A stretch of DNA of 64,000 nucleotides from Larkinella soli. Lineage in GTDB: Bacteria; Bacteroidota; Bacteroidia; Cytophagales; Spirosomataceae. The position numbers and the translations under genes are program-made. Below the pieces are notes generated by a model. The model searched no databases. It worked only from the letters and a program-made list of their open reading frames with translations, and was not told the origin of the DNA. Location: positions 124,001 through 188,000 of the forward strand of contig NZ_QTJY01000005.1 in assembly GCF_003703975.1 (NCBI RefSeq), written 5' to 3'. Positions 11,746-37,363 of the stretch are shown here, piece by piece (within the stretch, counting starts at the first letter, position 1; each line of letters begins with the position of its first letter).

Positions 11746-13529
11746 TACTTCTGCTTTTCCACCCAGGCGTCCATCTTCCGTTCCAGCACGTCGAGCGGCA
11801 TACAGCCGTCTTTCAGGAATTCGTCGTGGAAGGCCGCCAGGCTGAATTTTTCGCCCAGCTGCTGTTCGTATTTCCGGCGCAGCTCCCGGATTTTGATGGA
11901 CCCGATCTTATACGACAGCGCCTGTCCCGGGATAGCCATGTAGCGTTCGATCTCGGCCACGGCACCCTGTTCGGCAATCGGCTCGTTGTCCATCATGTAT
12001 TTAATGGCCTGCTCGCGGGACATCTGTTTGGTATGCAGCCCTACGTCCACCACCAGCCGGATGGCCCGGTGGATCTCGTCGCTCAGGGCGCCCATGTACT
12101 GATAGGGGTCGGTATACAGCCCCAGTTCCCTGCCCAGCGACTCGCAGTAGAGCGCCCAGCCCTCGCCGTAGGCCCCGTACCACGCAAACCGCCGGAATTT
12201 CGGCAAACCGGTGTTTTCCTGCTGAAGCGAAATCTGGTAATGGTGGCCCGGAATAGCCTCATGCAAAAACAGCGACTCCATACCCGAGGTGATGTTGAAT
12301 TTCGACGCGTCGGGAATCGGGACGTAAAAAATACCGGGCCGGCTGCCGTCCGCCGAGGGCTGGTTGTACTCCGCGCTCGCCGAAGCCTCCCGGAACTTCT
12401 CCGTCTGCCGCACCTCGAATTTCGACTTCGGCGTCTGGGTGAACATCTTCTGGAGGTTCGGCTCGATCTTCGTCAGGATGGCGTTGAATGCCGCCAGCAC
12501 CTCCTTCGGCTGCTGGTAGGGATAGAATTTCCGGTCGGTTTTCAGGTAGTTGAAAAACGCGTCCAGCGAGCCCTGAAAGCCCACCTGCTGCTTCACTTTT
12601 TCCATCTCCCCGCGAATCCGGGCCACTTCCTCCAGGCCGGTCCGGTAGATTTCTTCCGGCGATTTGTCGGTCGTCGTCCAGGTCCGGACGAGGTAGTTAT
12701 ACAGTTCCGGCCCCTGCGGAACGGCGTCGATGCCGGAGGTCGCCCGGGCTTTCGGCAGGTATTCGGTCTTCAGGAAATCGCCCAGCTTTTTGTAGGTCGG
12801 CACGATCTCTTCCTGAATGGCCTTGCGGTACGCGGCCGTCAGGCGGTTCTTTTCCTCCGGGCTGAAGTCGTTCGGCAGGCGGCTGATCGGGCCGTAGAAG
12901 AGGCTCTGAGCCGGGTCCGTCACCACCAGCTCTTCCATCTGCGGGATCATCTTCACCACCAGACTTTTCGGCAGCACCATGCCGGCGGCCAGGCCCTTGC
13001 GGAAGTTGGCGACGGCCGTGTCGCCCCACACCCGGAAGGCCGATACCCGTTTCAGCCAGTCGTCGTAATCCTTCACGGTTTTAAACGGCTGCGCGCCCAC
13101 CCCGCTCCCCAGCTGCCCGAATTGCAGCGGCAGCCCTTCGAACTGGTTGAACGGGATGTATTCCGAGTGGAATTTATATTGCTCCAGCTGAAGCTCCAGC
13201 TCCTGTTTGAGAATATCGTAGGAGATTTTGTCCTCATCCGACAGCCCGTTGCGGTCAAAGGCGTTCAGTTTCCGGAGATATTCGGTATAAAACGTTTTCG
13301 TCCGGTTCAGAAATTCCTGGGAAATGCTGTTCGGAAGCTGGTCGTTGTAGCGGGGATCGCCCTGGGTGGTGGCTTCAAGCGGGAACAGCTTCAGACGGTC
13401 TTCGAAATAGGCGTCCAGTACCTTTCCGAAATCTCTGCCGGAGCCGGCGCCGGTTTCGCCGTTCTGATTGGAATTACAGGCCATGACGACAGCGGCCAGG
13501 GCGGCCGACAAAAGCAGGTTTTTCATCAT
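11745..13529 (-). CDS. DUF885 family lipoprotein, putative metallopeptidase-like
   Basis: The protein starts MMKNLLLSAA and has a lipobox ending VMAC, so it should be a lipidated envelope protein of 594 residues. The central motif HEAIPGHHYQ (His423, Glu424, His429, His430) is the hallmark of DUF885 and resembles a zinc-binding HExxxGH site. Family members are thought to be peptidases, but few have been tested. Longer in-frame starts up to 13580 would place charged residues before the signal peptide, so I use 13529. The gene ends in a one-base overlap with the CvfB-like gene, forming a two-gene operon. Confidence 0.85.
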   Translation of the reverse strand: MMKNLLLSAALAAVVMACNSNQNGETGAGSGRDFGKVLDAYFEDRLKLFPLEATTQGDPRYNDQLPNSISQEFLNRTKTFYTEYLRKLNAFDRNGLSDEDKISYDILKQELELQLEQYKFHSEYIPFNQFEGLPLQFGQLGSGVGAQPFKTVKDYDDWLKRVSAFRVWGDTAVANFRKGLAAGMVLPKSLVVKMIPQMEELVVTDPAQSLFYGPISRLPNDFSPEEKNRLTAAYRKAIQEEIVPTYKKLGDFLKTEYLPKARATSGIDAVPQGPELYNYLVRTWTTTDKSPEEIYRTGLEEVARIRGEMEKVKQQVGFQGSLDAFFNYLKTDRKFYPYQQPKEVLAAFNAILTKIEPNLQKMFTQTPKSKFEVRQTEKFREASASAEYNQPSADGSRPGIFYVPIPDASKFNITSGMESLFLHEAIPGHHYQISLQQENTGLPKFRRFAWYGAYGEGWALYCESLGRELGLYTDPYQYMGALSDEIHRAIRLVVDVGLHTKQMSREQAIKYMMDNEPIAEQGAVAEIERYMAIPGQALSYKIGSIKIRELRRKYEQQLGEKFSLAAFHDEFLKDGCMPLDVLERKMDAWVEKQK

Positions 13530-33081: not shown

Positions 33082-33089
33082 TATCTTTG
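33082..33089 (+). promoter_or_regulatory. -7 box of the starch-sensor gene
   Basis: TATCTTTG is a full TAnnTTTG match and lies 25 bases before the ATG at 33115. A -33 element at normal distance is not obvious, which might mean activator dependence. Confidence 0.55.
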
Positions 33090-33114: not shown

Positions 33115-35034
33115 ATGAAATTCATTCTCACTCTTCTTTCCGGAATCCTCCTGCTGGCTACGGCCGGCCGGGCGCAACTGGTCGTGGAGGTGGTCCGGCA
33201 TCCCCCGTTGAACCAGTCGGGGCCGGGCCTTTTCATTGCGGGCGAGTTCAACAACTGGAACCCCGGCGATCCGGCCTATCAGCTCACCCAACGGGATAAC
33301 GGCGTCTACTTCATCGAGTTACCCGATACGCTCCAGCATTTCGAATACAAGTATACGCAGGGAAGCTGGACGGCCGTCGAGGGCATGGCCGACGGGTCCC
33401 TGCGCCCCAACCGGGTTTATGACCGCCGGACGGCCCGCTCTCCGGCTCTGGTCCGGGACACCATCACGGCCTGGGAACGAAAACCGGGTTATCAGTTCGT
33501 CGTGACGGAACTGCCGGGAAATACGCCGGTAGATGCGCGGCTTTATATCTCGGGAAACTTCAATGAATGGGATGCGGGCGACGAACAATACCGGCTTCGG
33601 AAGCAGGTGGACGGCACCTACCGCGTCACGGTGCACACCGACCTGCCCCAACTCGAATACAAGTTTACGCGGGGAAGCTGGGAAATGGTCGAGGGCAGCG
33701 AAAACGGCAAAGCCCTGCCCAACCGGCTTCTCAACCGCTACGACGACATCGACAACAAGGCCATCGAAATCCGGATTCAGAGCTGGGAAGACCTGTCGGG
33801 GACGTTCAACTTCTTCTCGATCTACGATCTGCTGCTGCTTTTCTCGGCTTTTCAGGGCTTTCTTCTGCTCTTTTTCATCCCCTCCATCCAGAATTACAAC
33901 CGGGCGGCCAACCGCTGGCTGGTGATTCTGATGGGCGTTTCGTCGCTGCTGGTGCTCATCCGGGTAGTGAGCAGTTTTCGGGAGGTGGCGCAGATTTACA
34001 CCAAGATGCTGCTGCTGCCCGACTTCCTGTACTTCGTTTATGCCCCGCTGTTCTACATCTACGTTCAGAAGCTACTTTTCAAGCCCAGCCGGCTGAGTTC
34101 GCGCTGGCCCTACCACTTCATTCCGGCGGCCGTTCAGCTGCTGGCCTACATGCCGCTCTTTCTGATGGAGAGCAGGAAATTTCAGCACAAGATCGTCAAC
34201 CAGACGGCGGACGTCACGGCGCTGTTTCTGGTTACGGGTCTGGCCGGGCTGATCTTCAACGGTCTGTACTGGCTCCGCTGCCGCCGGATGATCGAAGAAT
34301 ACAAACGGCAGTACCAGAGCAGCCTTTCCTACGAACAGAACGTTCATTATTTCAATACGGTGCTGGTCATTCAGGCGGTCTGTCTGGTGCTGTGGCTGTT
34401 TACGTTCCTGCTGCTAGGCGTGGGTCAGGGCTTCCGGTTCGACGTGGCGACCATCGCCGGGCGCAGCGTCGACACGATCTGGCTGGCCTTCTCGACCATC
34501 GTGTATTTCCTCGGCTATTTCGCCATCCACCAGCCGGAGATTTTCAAGGTGCGGCAGTTTCCGGCCGACGAACCGCCCCGGCCCGGACCCGGCCCCGAAA
34601 CGGACCCGGCCGCCCCTGATACCGAAGCGGTCCCGACGGTTGTTTCCGCCCCGGCGGCCTATGCGGCTCCGCAGCCCGAACCGGAGGAGGACCTCGAACC
34701 GGTGATGCAGCAGGTGGAAGCCTACATGAAGCGGCACAAGCCTTATACCAACCCCAGCCTGACCATCAACGAACTCGCCGGCAAACTCAAGATGCAGCCG
34801 CATCAGCTGTCGCGGGTGATCAACGACGGGTTCGACAAGAACTTTTTCGACTTTATCAATTACTACCGCGTGGAGGAACTGAAGCAGTGCATGGACGACC
34901 CGCGGTTCCGGCATTATACGCTGCTGAGCCTGGCCTACGAGGTCGGCTTCAACTCCAAGACTTCCTTCAACCGGGCCTTCAAAAAGCTGACTCAACAGAC
35001 CCCCAGCGAATACTTCCAGGCCGTGAAAGAGTAA
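33115..35034 (+). CDS. Membrane-spanning AraC-type regulator with two starch-binding-like modules
   Basis: The 639-residue protein joins four parts. A signal peptide (1-20) precedes two related periplasmic modules: residues about 22-105 with FIAGEFNNWNPGD and YKYTQGSW, and about 118-210 with YISGNFNEWDAGD and YKFTRGSW. They look like the glycogen/starch-binding E-set domains of AMPK-beta or CBM48 type. Seven hydrophobic helices follow (about 236-470), then a Pro/Ala/Glu-rich linker (about 478-525), and a cytoplasmic AraC HTH (about 540-638, LAGKLKMQPHQLSRVIND and LAYEVGFNSKTSFNRAFKK). An odd number of helices puts modules outside and HTH inside. With the downstream amylase this suggests a one-component alpha-glucan sensor; the ligand is inferred. 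Confidence 0.8.
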   Translation: MKFILTLLSGILLLATAGRAQLVVEVVRHPPLNQSGPGLFIAGEFNNWNPGDPAYQLTQRDNGVYFIELPDTLQHFEYKYTQGSWTAVEGMADGSLRPNRVYDRRTARSPALVRDTITAWERKPGYQFVVTELPGNTPVDARLYISGNFNEWDAGDEQYRLRKQVDGTYRVTVHTDLPQLEYKFTRGSWEMVEGSENGKALPNRLLNRYDDIDNKAIEIRIQSWEDLSGTFNFFSIYDLLLLFSAFQGFLLLFFIPSIQNYNRAANRWLVILMGVSSLLVLIRVVSSFREVAQIYTKMLLLPDFLYFVYAPLFYIYVQKLLFKPSRLSSRWPYHFIPAAVQLLAYMPLFLMESRKFQHKIVNQTADVTALFLVTGLAGLIFNGLYWLRCRRMIEEYKRQYQSSLSYEQNVHYFNTVLVIQAVCLVLWLFTFLLLGVGQGFRFDVATIAGRSVDTIWLAFSTIVYFLGYFAIHQPEIFKVRQFPADEPPRPGPGPETDPAAPDTEAVPTVVSAPAAYAAPQPEPEEDLEPVMQQVEAYMKRHKPYTNPSLTINELAGKLKMQPHQLSRVINDGFDKNFFDFINYYRVEELKQCMDDPRFRHYTLLSLAYEVGFNSKTSFNRAFKKLTQQTPSEYFQAVKE

Positions 35035-35062
35035 AAAATCCGGGCTTCTTTTTTCCGGTTGT

Positions 35063-35087
35063 GGTGCCAACTTCAAAAAGTGGCACC
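35063..35087 (+). repeat. Hairpin behind the sensor gene
   Basis: GGTGCC (35063-35068) pairs with GGCACC (35082-35087), and the loop can add an ACTT/AAGT pairing. It begins 29 bases after the stop codon of the sensor gene and has no strong T-run, so it may protect the 3' end of the message. Confidence 0.35.
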
Positions 35088-35200
35088 TCAAATTTCCTAT
35101 ACAAACTGTTGACTACCAATAATGTATCCTGAGAACCGGTCCTAAAAACCGGGCGGAGCCGAGCCCGGCAAAGTGGGGCGACTCAAGCCGCATGGATCTC

Positions 35201-35208
35201 TACTTTTG
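35201..35208 (+). promoter_or_regulatory. Candidate -7 box of the amylase transcript
   Basis: TACTTTTG matches TAnnTTTG and lies 168 bases before the amylase start codon. If used, the message carries a leader of about 160 bases that includes the terminator hairpin at 35324-35359. Apart from this box and the two hairpins, the 342-base gap 35035-35376 shows no gene. Confidence 0.4.
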
Positions 35209-35323
35209 TCCCGTTCGTCTTACCGATCTATGATAAAGAAGTATCGCTAAAGGTGTCAATCGAAAGGCCGGACGACACTCCCATCAACAAACGCTTTCAT
35301 TCAGTGCTAATCCTATGAGAAAC

Positions 35324-35359
35324 GGGCATAGCGGGTCTTTCCCGCTATGCCCTTGTTTT
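35324..35359 (+). terminator. Rho-independent terminator just before the amylase gene
   Basis: GGGCATAGCGGG (35324-35335) pairs perfectly with CCCGCTATGCCC (35341-35352) over a 5-base loop and is followed by TTGTTTTA. It ends only 17 bases before the amylase ATG. It therefore either ends the sensor transcript or acts as an attenuator in the amylase leader. Confidence 0.75.
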
Positions 35360-35376
35360 ACGCGCGAACCAAACCT

Positions 35377-36972
35377 ATGCACCGGCCCGGAGGTTTACTG
35401 CTCAGTTTTGCATTCTTTTGGCTTATGATTCATCCCGCTCCGGCCCGGACGGCTTCCCGTACCTCCTCCCCTTCTCCCGGCAGTACCGGCGTTCATTACG
35501 AGATTTTCGTCCGCGCGTTCTGCGATTCCAACGGCGACGGCATCGGCGACCTGAACGGCGTCACCTCCCGGCTCGACTACCTTCAGGACCTGGGCGTTTC
35601 GGCCCTCTGGCTCATGCCCGTCAACCCGTCGCCGAGTTACCATAAATACGACGTAACCGACTATTACGGGATCGATCCGGAATACGGCACCCTCGATGAT
35701 TTCAAACGGCTGGTGGATGAAGCCCACCGGCGCGGGATCCGGGTGATCATGGACTTTGTGATCAACCATACCAGCAGCCGGCACCCCTGGTTTCAGGAAG
35801 CCTGCAAAAGCCGCGAGAACCCCTACCACGACTGGTATGTCTGGATGACCCGCCAACAGATTGACTCCCTCAACATCGCCACCCGGGAGATCACGGCCGA
35901 TTCGCAGGAACGCAGCCCCTGGCACGCGGTGCCGGGCGCGCCTTTCCCTGAACGCTATTACGCGCTGTTCTGGAGCGGAATGCCGGACCTGAACTACGAC
36001 CACCCGGCCGTCCGGAAGGAAATTTATAAAGCCGGGGCCTACTGGCTGAAAGAGATCGGCGTGGACGGGTTTCGGCTCGATGCCGCCCGCCATATCTACC
36101 CCGACTGGGAGGAGCCGAAGAACCATCAGTTCTGGGAAGAATTCGGCCGCGAGATGGAAGCCGTCAAACCGGGAGCCTACACGGTGGGCGAGGTCTGGAC
36201 GAGCGCCGAGCGCATCGCCCCCTACTTCCGCGGGCTAAAGGCAAACTTCAATTTCGACCTGAGCCTGGCCCTCCAGGAACTGATCCCGAAGGAACGCGAT
36301 TCGGTCGAGATCGTGCGGATGCTACTGCACAATCGCTCCGTCTTCGAGCAGGTGAACCCGAATTTCCTCGACGCCATCATGCTCACCAATCACGACCAGA
36401 ACCGCATCGGCAGCGTGCTGAAGGGCAACGCCGACCATCTCAAAGTGGCGGCCAACCTCCTGCTGACGCTCCCCGGCAACCCGTATCTGTATTACGGCGA
36501 GGAGATCGGCATGCTGGGCATGAAACCGGACGAAAACATTCGGGAGCCGTTTCTCTGGGACGAAAAAGGCCGCGATACCGGGCGCAGCCGCTGGCGCAGG
36601 CCCAAATTCTCGACCGACAGTACGGTGGTTCCGCTGGCCCGGCAGCAGGCCGACCCGCACTCCCTGTTCCACCATTACCGCCGGCTGATCCACTTCCGCA
36701 ACGGCCACCCCGTCCTGAACGACAACCGAAGCCGGCTGGAGGGCAGTGAGATCCGCCAGAAGGGCGTGATCGCGTTCCACCGCCGGTCCGGCGACCGTTC
36801 CGTGCTGGTGCTCCACAACCTGACCAAACGCGGCATGGACGTGCTGCTGTACCCGGCGGCCGAAGCCGAGGGCAAAAAGATCGTTCTGGATACGCAGGGA
36901 AAAGCCCGGCTGATCAAAGGCGGCAAACTGCGGCTGCCCGCCTACGGGTGCGTGGTGCTGGAGGATAAATAA
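35377..36972 (+). CDS. Exported GH13 alpha-amylase family glycosidase
   Basis: This protein of 531 residues has an N-terminal hydrophobic signal (LLLSFAFFWLMIHPAPA) and then the GH13 barrel. All four conserved regions are present: DFVINH, GFRLDAARH with nucleophile Asp235, VGEVW with acid Glu272, and LTNHDQNR with Asp340. SNGDGIGDLNGV near the N-terminus is the calcium-binding loop typical of GH13. A C-terminal beta domain ends the chain. It should cleave alpha-1,4-glucan in the periplasm or outside. The ATG at 35377 is preferred over 35347, which lies inside the terminator hairpin. The upstream starch-sensing regulator is the natural controller. Confidence 0.92.
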   Translation: MHRPGGLLLSFAFFWLMIHPAPARTASRTSSPSPGSTGVHYEIFVRAFCDSNGDGIGDLNGVTSRLDYLQDLGVSALWLMPVNPSPSYHKYDVTDYYGIDPEYGTLDDFKRLVDEAHRRGIRVIMDFVINHTSSRHPWFQEACKSRENPYHDWYVWMTRQQIDSLNIATREITADSQERSPWHAVPGAPFPERYYALFWSGMPDLNYDHPAVRKEIYKAGAYWLKEIGVDGFRLDAARHIYPDWEEPKNHQFWEEFGREMEAVKPGAYTVGEVWTSAERIAPYFRGLKANFNFDLSLALQELIPKERDSVEIVRMLLHNRSVFEQVNPNFLDAIMLTNHDQNRIGSVLKGNADHLKVAANLLLTLPGNPYLYYGEEIGMLGMKPDENIREPFLWDEKGRDTGRSRWRRPKFSTDSTVVPLARQQADPHSLFHHYRRLIHFRNGHPVLNDNRSRLEGSEIRQKGVIAFHRRSGDRSVLVLHNLTKRGMDVLLYPAAEAEGKKIVLDTQGKARLIKGGKLRLPAYGCVVLEDK

Positions 36973-36979
36973 TAGAGAG

Positions 36980-37363
36980 CTACTCGAGGTCAACCACTAC
37001 CAGTCCCTCTACTCTTGAGAAATGCTTTACATTTAAAGTGGCAAGCTGCATATCATACACTAGAGCAGTTGCCGCAATGGCCATATCGGCAAAACCGATC
37101 TGTTGATTTTTCCGTACCAAGTCTCGTTTAATTTTTGCGGTCGTCACGGCGACTTCGTCGCCAAAAGGCAACAAGACAACCGATTCGAACAAACTGGCCC
37201 AAAACTCATCCTGAAGTGATGAACTCCCAACGATAATTTCGTACTTGGTCAGCGCGGAAACGGCAATGTCCGGATACCGCTTTATCAACCTGAAGAACGC
37301 GGTTTTCGTTTTTTCCGATTTCCTGAAATAATCAATCAGAATGCTGGTATCAATCAGGATCAT
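36980..37363 (-). CDS. vapC: PIN-domain ribonuclease toxin, VapC-like
   Basis: This 127-residue protein has the PIN acidic residues in order: Asp5 (MILIDTSILID), Glu42 (TKYEII) and Asp93 (GFADMAIAATAL). This matches type II VapC toxins, which cut tRNA or rRNA when the antitoxin is lost. The length is typical. The reading frame overlaps the upstream antitoxin gene by 14 bases, as expected for a toxin-antitoxin pair. Base use is somewhat more AT-rich than in the neighbouring amylase gene, which would fit acquisition by transfer. Confidence 0.9.
   Translation of the reverse strand: MILIDTSILIDYFRKSEKTKTAFFRLIKRYPDIAVSALTKYEIIVGSSSLQDEFWASLFESVVLLPFGDEVAVTTAKIKRDLVRKNQQIGFADMAIAATALVYDMQLATLNVKHFSRVEGLVVVDLE

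Follow-up and report, generated by a model that had tools for sequence, protein, structure and literature searches.

A putative membrane-spanning AraC-type regulator of alpha-glucan use in Larkinella soli and its relatives, with a conserved site upstream of susC or of an amylase gene

The subject of this work is a stretch of 64,000 nucleotides from Larkinella soli (Bacteroidota, Spirosomataceae; contig NZ_QTJY01000005.1, positions 124,001 to 188,000), hereafter the window, in which a gene for a membrane-spanning regulator with an AraC-type helix-turn-helix (HTH) domain is followed on the same strand by a gene for an alpha-amylase of glycoside hydrolase family 13 (GH13). Between both genes lies the element AAAGTGGRRCGAC, 18-19 bp upstream of a -7 promoter box, and the same element occupies the same position before susC in related genomes. 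The regulator is probably an inner-membrane one-component switch of alpha-glucan use, acting through AAAGTGGRRCGAC on a sus operon or on the amylase gene. The conserved site is the main evidence for this target; together with the SusC and GH13 genes of the neighbourhood, it supports the alpha-glucan target of the original prediction, which had been made from the window alone (coordinates in Table 1).

The open reading frame (ORF) of the regulator is complete and free of internal stops. The claim that a signal peptide, two modules, seven helices, a linker and an AraC HTH are joined in one polypeptide agrees with the ORF, with Pfam and with an AlphaFold model calculated from 38 sequences (mean predicted local distance difference test, pLDDT, 79.6; predicted template-modelling score, pTM, 0.48). 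In this model a leader helix, beta-sandwich regions at about residues 22-110 and 121-221, seven long helices (236-472), a low-confidence linker (478-523) and the HTH follow one another, so that membrane helices and DNA-binding domain are predicted in a single chain from these helices and the HTH match. The hydropathy profile of the closest relative (L115) also gives seven membrane helices, and the loop charges of the seven-transmembrane (7TM) domain indicated no decisive orientation in the membrane. Pfam identifies the output domain as HTH_18 (residues 554-635, E 2.2e-14, 53.9 bits against a curated cut-off of 33.6), a family present in all 38 members at E 0.01, which places them in the AraC/XylS group. 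No HisKA, HATPase_c or Response_reg appears among the Pfam matches to the regulator up to E 1; 7TMR-DISM 7TM domains are likewise absent at that threshold, as well as among the families of the 38 members at E 0.01. A relationship between the 7TM domain and G-protein-coupled receptors was considered and set aside as too weak, with Foldseek E-values of at least 6e-3 and target TM-scores of at most 0.51 among the matches listed.

The two modules, presumably periplasmic, are likely to be beta-sandwiches of the starch-binding kind, as judged from models. On residues 34-80, Pfam gives X25_BaPul_like (E 0.0011) and AMPK1_CBM (E 0.011), both under their curated cut-offs, and for this reason fold comparison and family conservation were used, Pfam alone being inadequate here. 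Among the 38 members, X25 is found in eight, AMPK1_CBM in four, CBM_48 and CBM53 in three each, and a few unrelated families also appear (E 0.01). A profile of 19 sequences matches BoGH13A-Sus with E 0.0015, no single stretch being significant alone, and in a weak match of that profile (E 0.19) both tryptophans of module 1 line up with AMPK-beta2. Modelled alone, the module pair reaches a pLDDT of 88.5 and a pTM of 0.63, and its best Foldseek match is the tandem CBM26 of Amy13K, others being BoGH13A-Sus, cyclodextrin glucanotransferases, the starch-binding domain of beta-amylase and the CBM20 of STBD1 with maltotetraose; the TM-scores are modest, and generic immunoglobulin-like pilins and adhesins are also returned. 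The carbohydrate-binding fold assumed at the outset is in this way recovered among alpha-glucan binders by structure, and weakly by sequence. Furthermore, W152, K183, W189 and W224 are invariant in the 38 aligned sequences (the window and 37 orthologues), W48, K79, W85 and W120 are conserved in at least 90% of them, and the module residues are the most constant ones outside the HTH. In AMPK-beta1, the glucan-stacking tryptophans and the accompanying lysine are W100, K126 and W133. From the fold and the conserved aromatic residues, the modules would bind maltodextrin-type sugars.

Modules of a similar kind were also met elsewhere. At L120:5756-9317, a 592-residue protein with AMPK-like modules (AMPK1_CBM 3e-7, above the cut-off) lies directly downstream of a histidine kinase (His_kinase) and a LytTR response regulator, and similar proteins of 582-593 residues occur in L121, L127 and L129; perhaps they belong to another glucan-sensing system. 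Single-module relatives of 460-495 residues were discarded, the one scanned being an esterase.

With a threshold of E 1e-130 or better, 74 matches to the regulator, accepted as orthologues, were obtained in 73 of 222 genomes of the Spirosomataceae, and none in the eight other genomes of the genus Larkinella. The orthologue records bear the names Runella, Dyadobacter, Spirosoma, Flectobacillus, Emticicia, Aquirufa and Chitinophaga skermanii, and those from metagenome-assembled genomes are named Cytophagaceae, Saprospiraceae and Chryseobacterium. In genome_contigs, 38 loci (L040-L077) were counted as orthologues, L072 being cut by a contig end, and the weaker L078-L081 were excluded. Some orthologues deviate from the common layout: in five from one genus (G110-G114, e.g. 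L159) the match starts at about residue 123, as if module 1 had been lost; in three it falls into two pieces around the linker within a single open frame; and in one it is confined to residues 255-635. The operator of G110, from the group without module 1, is degenerate. In another family of the same order, a copy about 48% identical (L118) is followed by SusC, SusD, SusE and GH13, and an AAAGTGGGGCGA was read there by eye. The L. soli genome also encodes ten or so paralogues with the 7TM-AraC part (residues ~234-638) and no modules.

The neighbourhood of the orthologues is that expected of an alpha-glucan regulator, as had been proposed: SusC lies beside the regulator in 29 of the 38 loci (24 on the same strand, five divergent: L066, L067, L068, L071 and L076) and GH13 genes accompany it in 28 of these 29, the exception being L054. 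The usual layout is a susC-susD-susE operon with GH13 genes rather than an amylase alone; in L040 all four were confirmed by Pfam, and eight further proteins that were scanned comprised seven GH13 enzymes (three of cyclomaltodextrinase type) and one esterase. SusC was not found in nine loci (L041, L056, L062-L065, L069, L072 and L074), of which L065, L069 and L072 end near its expected position and L056, L062 and L064 lie on short contigs. As a control, ten stretches around the L. soli paralogues contained no SusD, SusE or GH13 of this kind; SusC-like receptors of a distant kind were present in three, and one stretch (L140) did not yield its own paralogue. At the genome level, SusC of the L040 type (E 1e-200 or better) is present in 68 of the 73 genomes with the regulator versus six of the 149 without it. 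L. soli is one of the five genomes with the regulator and no such SusC: the window contains no SusC, SusD or SusE, SusE (PF14292) was not found in the genome, and its best SusC shows about 40% identity to that of L040. The window seems to hold a reduced sus locus, in which the amylase follows what appears to be a susC promoter.

The site itself, AAAGTGGGGCGAC in the window, stands before a putative -7 box, TACTTTTG, whose position relative to it is kept among relatives; the Bacteroidota -7 consensus is TAnnTTTG. The exact 13-base pattern occurs once in the L. soli genome, at the amylase, where about one occurrence is expected by chance and the backwards control gives four; within the window, allowing up to one mismatch, there is one match against 0.45 expected. 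Since the pattern would arise by chance about once per genome, the argument rests on position and descent. Site and box together were found in 62 of the 222 genomes, namely in 50 of 73 with the regulator versus 12 of 149 without it, and amount to 69 matches, against 20 matches in 19 genomes for the reversed pattern. Their distance from the regulator is at most 8 kb in 42 genomes and, for 40 of these, at most 435 bp. They precede 40 of the 59 SusC copies near a regulator versus three of the 22 elsewhere, the three being in G048 and G128, with the regulator on another contig, and in G168; as the genomes are mutually related, the significance of these co-occurrences is overstated. Where susC is divergent, the site stays with susC, and in two genomes (G048 and G087) it marks alpha-glucan genes unlinked to the regulator, which also speaks for the proposed target.

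Farther upstream, an inverted repeat, GTGCCA...TGGCAC, carries an AAAGTGG half-site, and an equivalent stands 76-95 bp before the proximal one in 41 of 42 well-matched rows, a count in which one genome appears in duplicate. It is possibly a second operator, or else the terminator of the regulator gene, and it is kept also at divergent and unlinked targets, where no end of a regulator transcript is needed. Helical phasing of the two sites is suggestive only: for 34 typed spacings compared with a uniform range, a period of 10.5 bp gives P ~0.002 without correction for relatedness, but periods of 11-12 fit at least equally well. Autoregulation was also considered and rejected: the 400 bp before the regulator contain AAAGTGG, in either direction, in nine of the 38 loci, in seven of which susC is divergent or the contig ends there. 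In the window, a -7-like box, TATCTTTG, lies at 33082-33089 upstream of the regulator gene, and by eye no AAAGTGG was seen nearby.

The neighbouring gene had been described as a complete, exported GH13 amylase, and its GH13 identity is confirmed by Pfam (PF00128, E 1.7e-98; SusG_C, E 8.5e-11), by its best PDB relatives (1wza and SusG) and by GFRLDAARH, GEVW and NHDQNR, which we take to be the motifs with the GH13 catalytic residues. Its likely start has been corrected. The first ATG of the longest ORF (35347) sits inside a perfect 12-pair hairpin (z -5.0), which has a T-rich tail and is found at only one place in the genome; translation therefore more likely begins at the in-frame ATG at 35377, which would give an N-terminus resembling a signal peptide without a lipobox. 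The hairpin may be an attenuator, a terminator or a deletion scar. Downstream of the amylase, on the opposite strand (36980-37363), an ORF of 127 residues resembles, by eye, a PIN-domain toxin of the VapC type.

Table 1. Predicted features of the regulator-amylase locus, with positions in the window and the evidence for each.
Feature	Position	Strand	Evidence and remarks
Membrane-spanning AraC-type regulator	33115..35034	+	639 aa; open frame, HTH_18, AlphaFold model, orthologues
Signal peptide, residues 1-20	33115..33174	+	Helix 2-16 in AlphaFold model; cleavage site inferred from sequence
Module 1, beta-sandwich, residues ~21-110	33175..33444	+	Weak X25/AMPK1_CBM, models, Foldseek, W48/K79/W85 conservation
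Module 2, beta-sandwich, residues ~121-221	33475..33777	+	Models, Foldseek, invariant W152/K183/W189
Seven membrane helices, residues 236-472	33820..34530	+	AlphaFold model
Pro/Glu-rich disordered linker, residues 478-523	34546..34683	+	pLDDT <50; variable across alignment
AraC-type DNA-binding domain, residues 528-638	34696..35028	+	HTH_18, HTH_AraC, Foldseek matches to AraC-type HTH domains
Upstream inverted repeat GTGCCA...TGGCAC with AAAGTGG half-site	35064..35086		Script; 93 bp before proximal site
Predicted operator AAAGTGGGGCGAC	35170..35182	+	Conserved before susC in relatives; exact pattern once in L. soli genome
Predicted -7 promoter box TACTTTTG	35201..35208	+	Position kept relative to operator
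Terminator-like hairpin in amylase leader	35324..35352		12 pairs; one place in genome
GH13 alpha-amylase with signal peptide	35377..36972	+	PF00128, SusG_C, PDB relatives 1wza/SusG; start inferred; longest ORF from 35347

From these elements the following mechanism may be proposed. The periplasmic modules would bind maltodextrins, and ligand binding would rearrange the seven-helix domain, which would pass the change on to the cytoplasmic side. The AraC domain, tethered by the disordered linker, would bind AAAGTGGRRCGAC in the place of a -33 element, shortly before the -7 box, with a second DNA contact probably about 80 or 92 bp further upstream; the position of the site suggests that the bound domain recruits RNA polymerase, i.e. 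activates rather than represses. In most relatives the target would be the susC-susD-susE operon with GH13 enzymes. In L. soli, susCDE would have been lost, leaving the site and promoter before the amylase alone, and sugar would have to enter by another route. A second locus of the genome (L116; contig 8, 80001-100000) contains SusC, SusD and several GH13 genes, and that stretch gave no 7TM-AraC match and no match to site plus box. The idea that the regulator controls its own degradative enzyme is thus sustained for L. soli by the site and promoter before the amylase, although in most relatives the predicted target is the sus operon with its GH13 genes.

Several observations weigh against this proposal. 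The Pfam matches of the modules stay below threshold (AMPK1_CBM, 16.4 bits for a cut-off of 26.8), a genome of such size should contain the 13-base pattern by itself about once by chance, and a terminator-like hairpin separates the predicted promoter from the amylase. The strict site and box are missing before 19 of the 59 SusC copies near a regulator; the three of these that were inspected, in G072, G205 and G110, have degenerate forms, and G221 (L011) retains the 13-base element itself. G141 and G146 hold the regulator, but their SusC lies elsewhere without the site. In addition, 27 of the 69 site matches lie away from the regulator. Six of them, on five contigs, were inspected: in G048, which is presumably Arsenicibacter rosenii, its regulator having the coordinates of L041, one precedes a GH13 gene and another SusCDE; the site is followed in G087 by a GH13-like gene (partial match to PF00128, 2.6e-9), in G127 by a SusC fragment, in G128 by GH53 and SusC, and in G168 by SusCDE, although the regulator was not found in this genome. 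This last case, together with the 12 matches in 149 regulator-less genomes, would fit a site that belongs to another transcription factor, the 7TM-AraC protein being merely adjacent and controlling something else. Such an assignment is quite improbable in view of the co-occurrence described above, the matches in regulator-less genomes, mostly uninspected, being at about the level of the backwards control (20 matches in 222 genomes). It is also opposed by the absence of the site from 19 of the 22 SusC copies away from the regulator; even a relaxed pattern was found in none of the 13 such copies whose upstream regions were read (six in five regulator-less genomes and seven in regulator-bearing ones). 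Moreover, several of these copies adjoin other regulators: seven neighbours were scanned and turned out to be hybrid two-component (G119 and G040), FecR-type (G040 and G044) and AraC-cupin (G146) proteins, the remaining two being unrelated genes (G199 and G152), while G120 and G117 have neighbours of the same 1369-residue size as a scanned one. The two hybrid two-component regulators thus adjoin SusC homologues that lack the 7TM-AraC regulator.

The leader hairpin bears on a further explanation, according to which the regulator and site of L. soli are relics and the hairpin terminates transcription, the amylase having ceased to be so controlled after the loss of susCDE. Its 12 pairs, T-rich tail, z of -5.0 and single occurrence, as well as the lack of the regulator in the other eight genomes of the genus, are in line with this; we regard it as unlikely, given that the regulator ORF is intact with its conserved residues, that the spacing between operator and -7 box is preserved and that the amylase retains its motifs. 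A different specificity is hinted at by a GH53 gene directly after the regulator in seven of the 38 loci (L045, at 12061-13176, the only one confirmed by Pfam, L047, L065, L067, L068, L069 and L071), which also counts against the alpha-glucan proposal. The modules might then bind a different glycan or have a purely structural role, with the 7TM domain as the sensor, an arrangement that the module-less paralogues and the orthologues matching from about residue 123 would suit; it has little probability in our view, considering the constancy of the module residues, the GH13 genes in all but one of the SusC-bearing loci and the alpha-glucan binders among the fold matches. Finally, the long, variable and disordered linker between the last helix and the HTH could point to a mechanism in which proteolysis frees the AraC domain from its membrane part, instead of a tethered activator. 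The linker is equally suited as a tether, and no protease gene was noted in the family-scanned SusC-bearing loci, where no search was aimed at proteases; release is a doubtful alternative. The one-component switch acting through AAAGTGGRRCGAC is the reading retained here as probable.

If it is correct, external glucan would act on transcription by a short path free of phosphorylation, in a phylum for which most accounts of glycan sensing concern SusR, hybrid two-component systems and sigma/anti-sigma systems. Going further, we consider it somewhat better than an even chance that a further class of polysaccharide-locus sensor exists in Bacteroidota, with a 7TM receptor, tandem starch-binding modules outside and a tethered AraC domain inside, which signals directly and needs no phosphorylation, that regulator and operator have been exchanged together at homologous sus operons, and that the L. 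soli amylase captured its promoter after the loss of susCDE. Since other copies of the sus operon appear to be controlled by hybrid two-component, FecR-type or cytoplasmic AraC regulators, such an exchange could be read from the promoters. The predicted operator comes with built-in controls, as the site is mostly absent from SusC copies away from the regulator, and with orthologues in records named Runella, Dyadobacter and Spirosoma, this makes ligand, target and signalling directly testable. A further question is how seven helices could convey a signal to a DNA-binding domain on a tether.

One-component glycan regulators that span the membrane are already known, as in the case of SusR; among the papers listed by our literature searches, none recognisably described the present combination of domains or its operator. 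According to PMC3878776, SusR lies in the membrane, its sensor facing the periplasm and its DNA-binding domain the cytoplasm; the latter domain does not significantly resemble that of any other known regulator, and its predicted operators consist of two distant boxes with 67 or 77 bp between centres. By that account, the regulator of the window would share with SusR (BT3705) and SusR-like proteins the one-component, membrane-spanning design and the control of a sus operon through two distant boxes (here about 80 or 92 bp apart), its layout fits a periplasmic sensor, and it differs in its clear AraC HTH (HTH_18, 2.2e-14) and, as far as descriptions can be compared, in its sensor. The contrast with SusR drawn in the original prediction consequently holds for the domains and not for the kind of regulator. 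Transmembrane transcription regulators, reported as enriched in Bacteroidota (PMC10269533), likewise act as transcription factors from the cytoplasmic membrane; the word AraC does not occur in the main text of that article. With hybrid two-component systems the regulator has in common an AraC-type output, a membrane sensor and, as predicted here, the control of SusC/SusD loci, but it lacks histidine kinase, receiver domain and propeller sensor, and the distinction from these systems made at the outset is upheld by Pfam. Its modules resemble those of AMPK-beta, CBM48, CBM20 and CBM26 in their predicted beta-sandwich fold and, in a weak alignment, in the tryptophans of an NNW ... GxW pattern, although their sequence matches fall under the curated cut-offs. 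The module-less 7TM-AraC paralogues, in turn, have the same arrangement of 7TM domain and HTH, whereas they lack the modules, and none of ten stretches around them showed SusD, SusE or GH13 of this kind.

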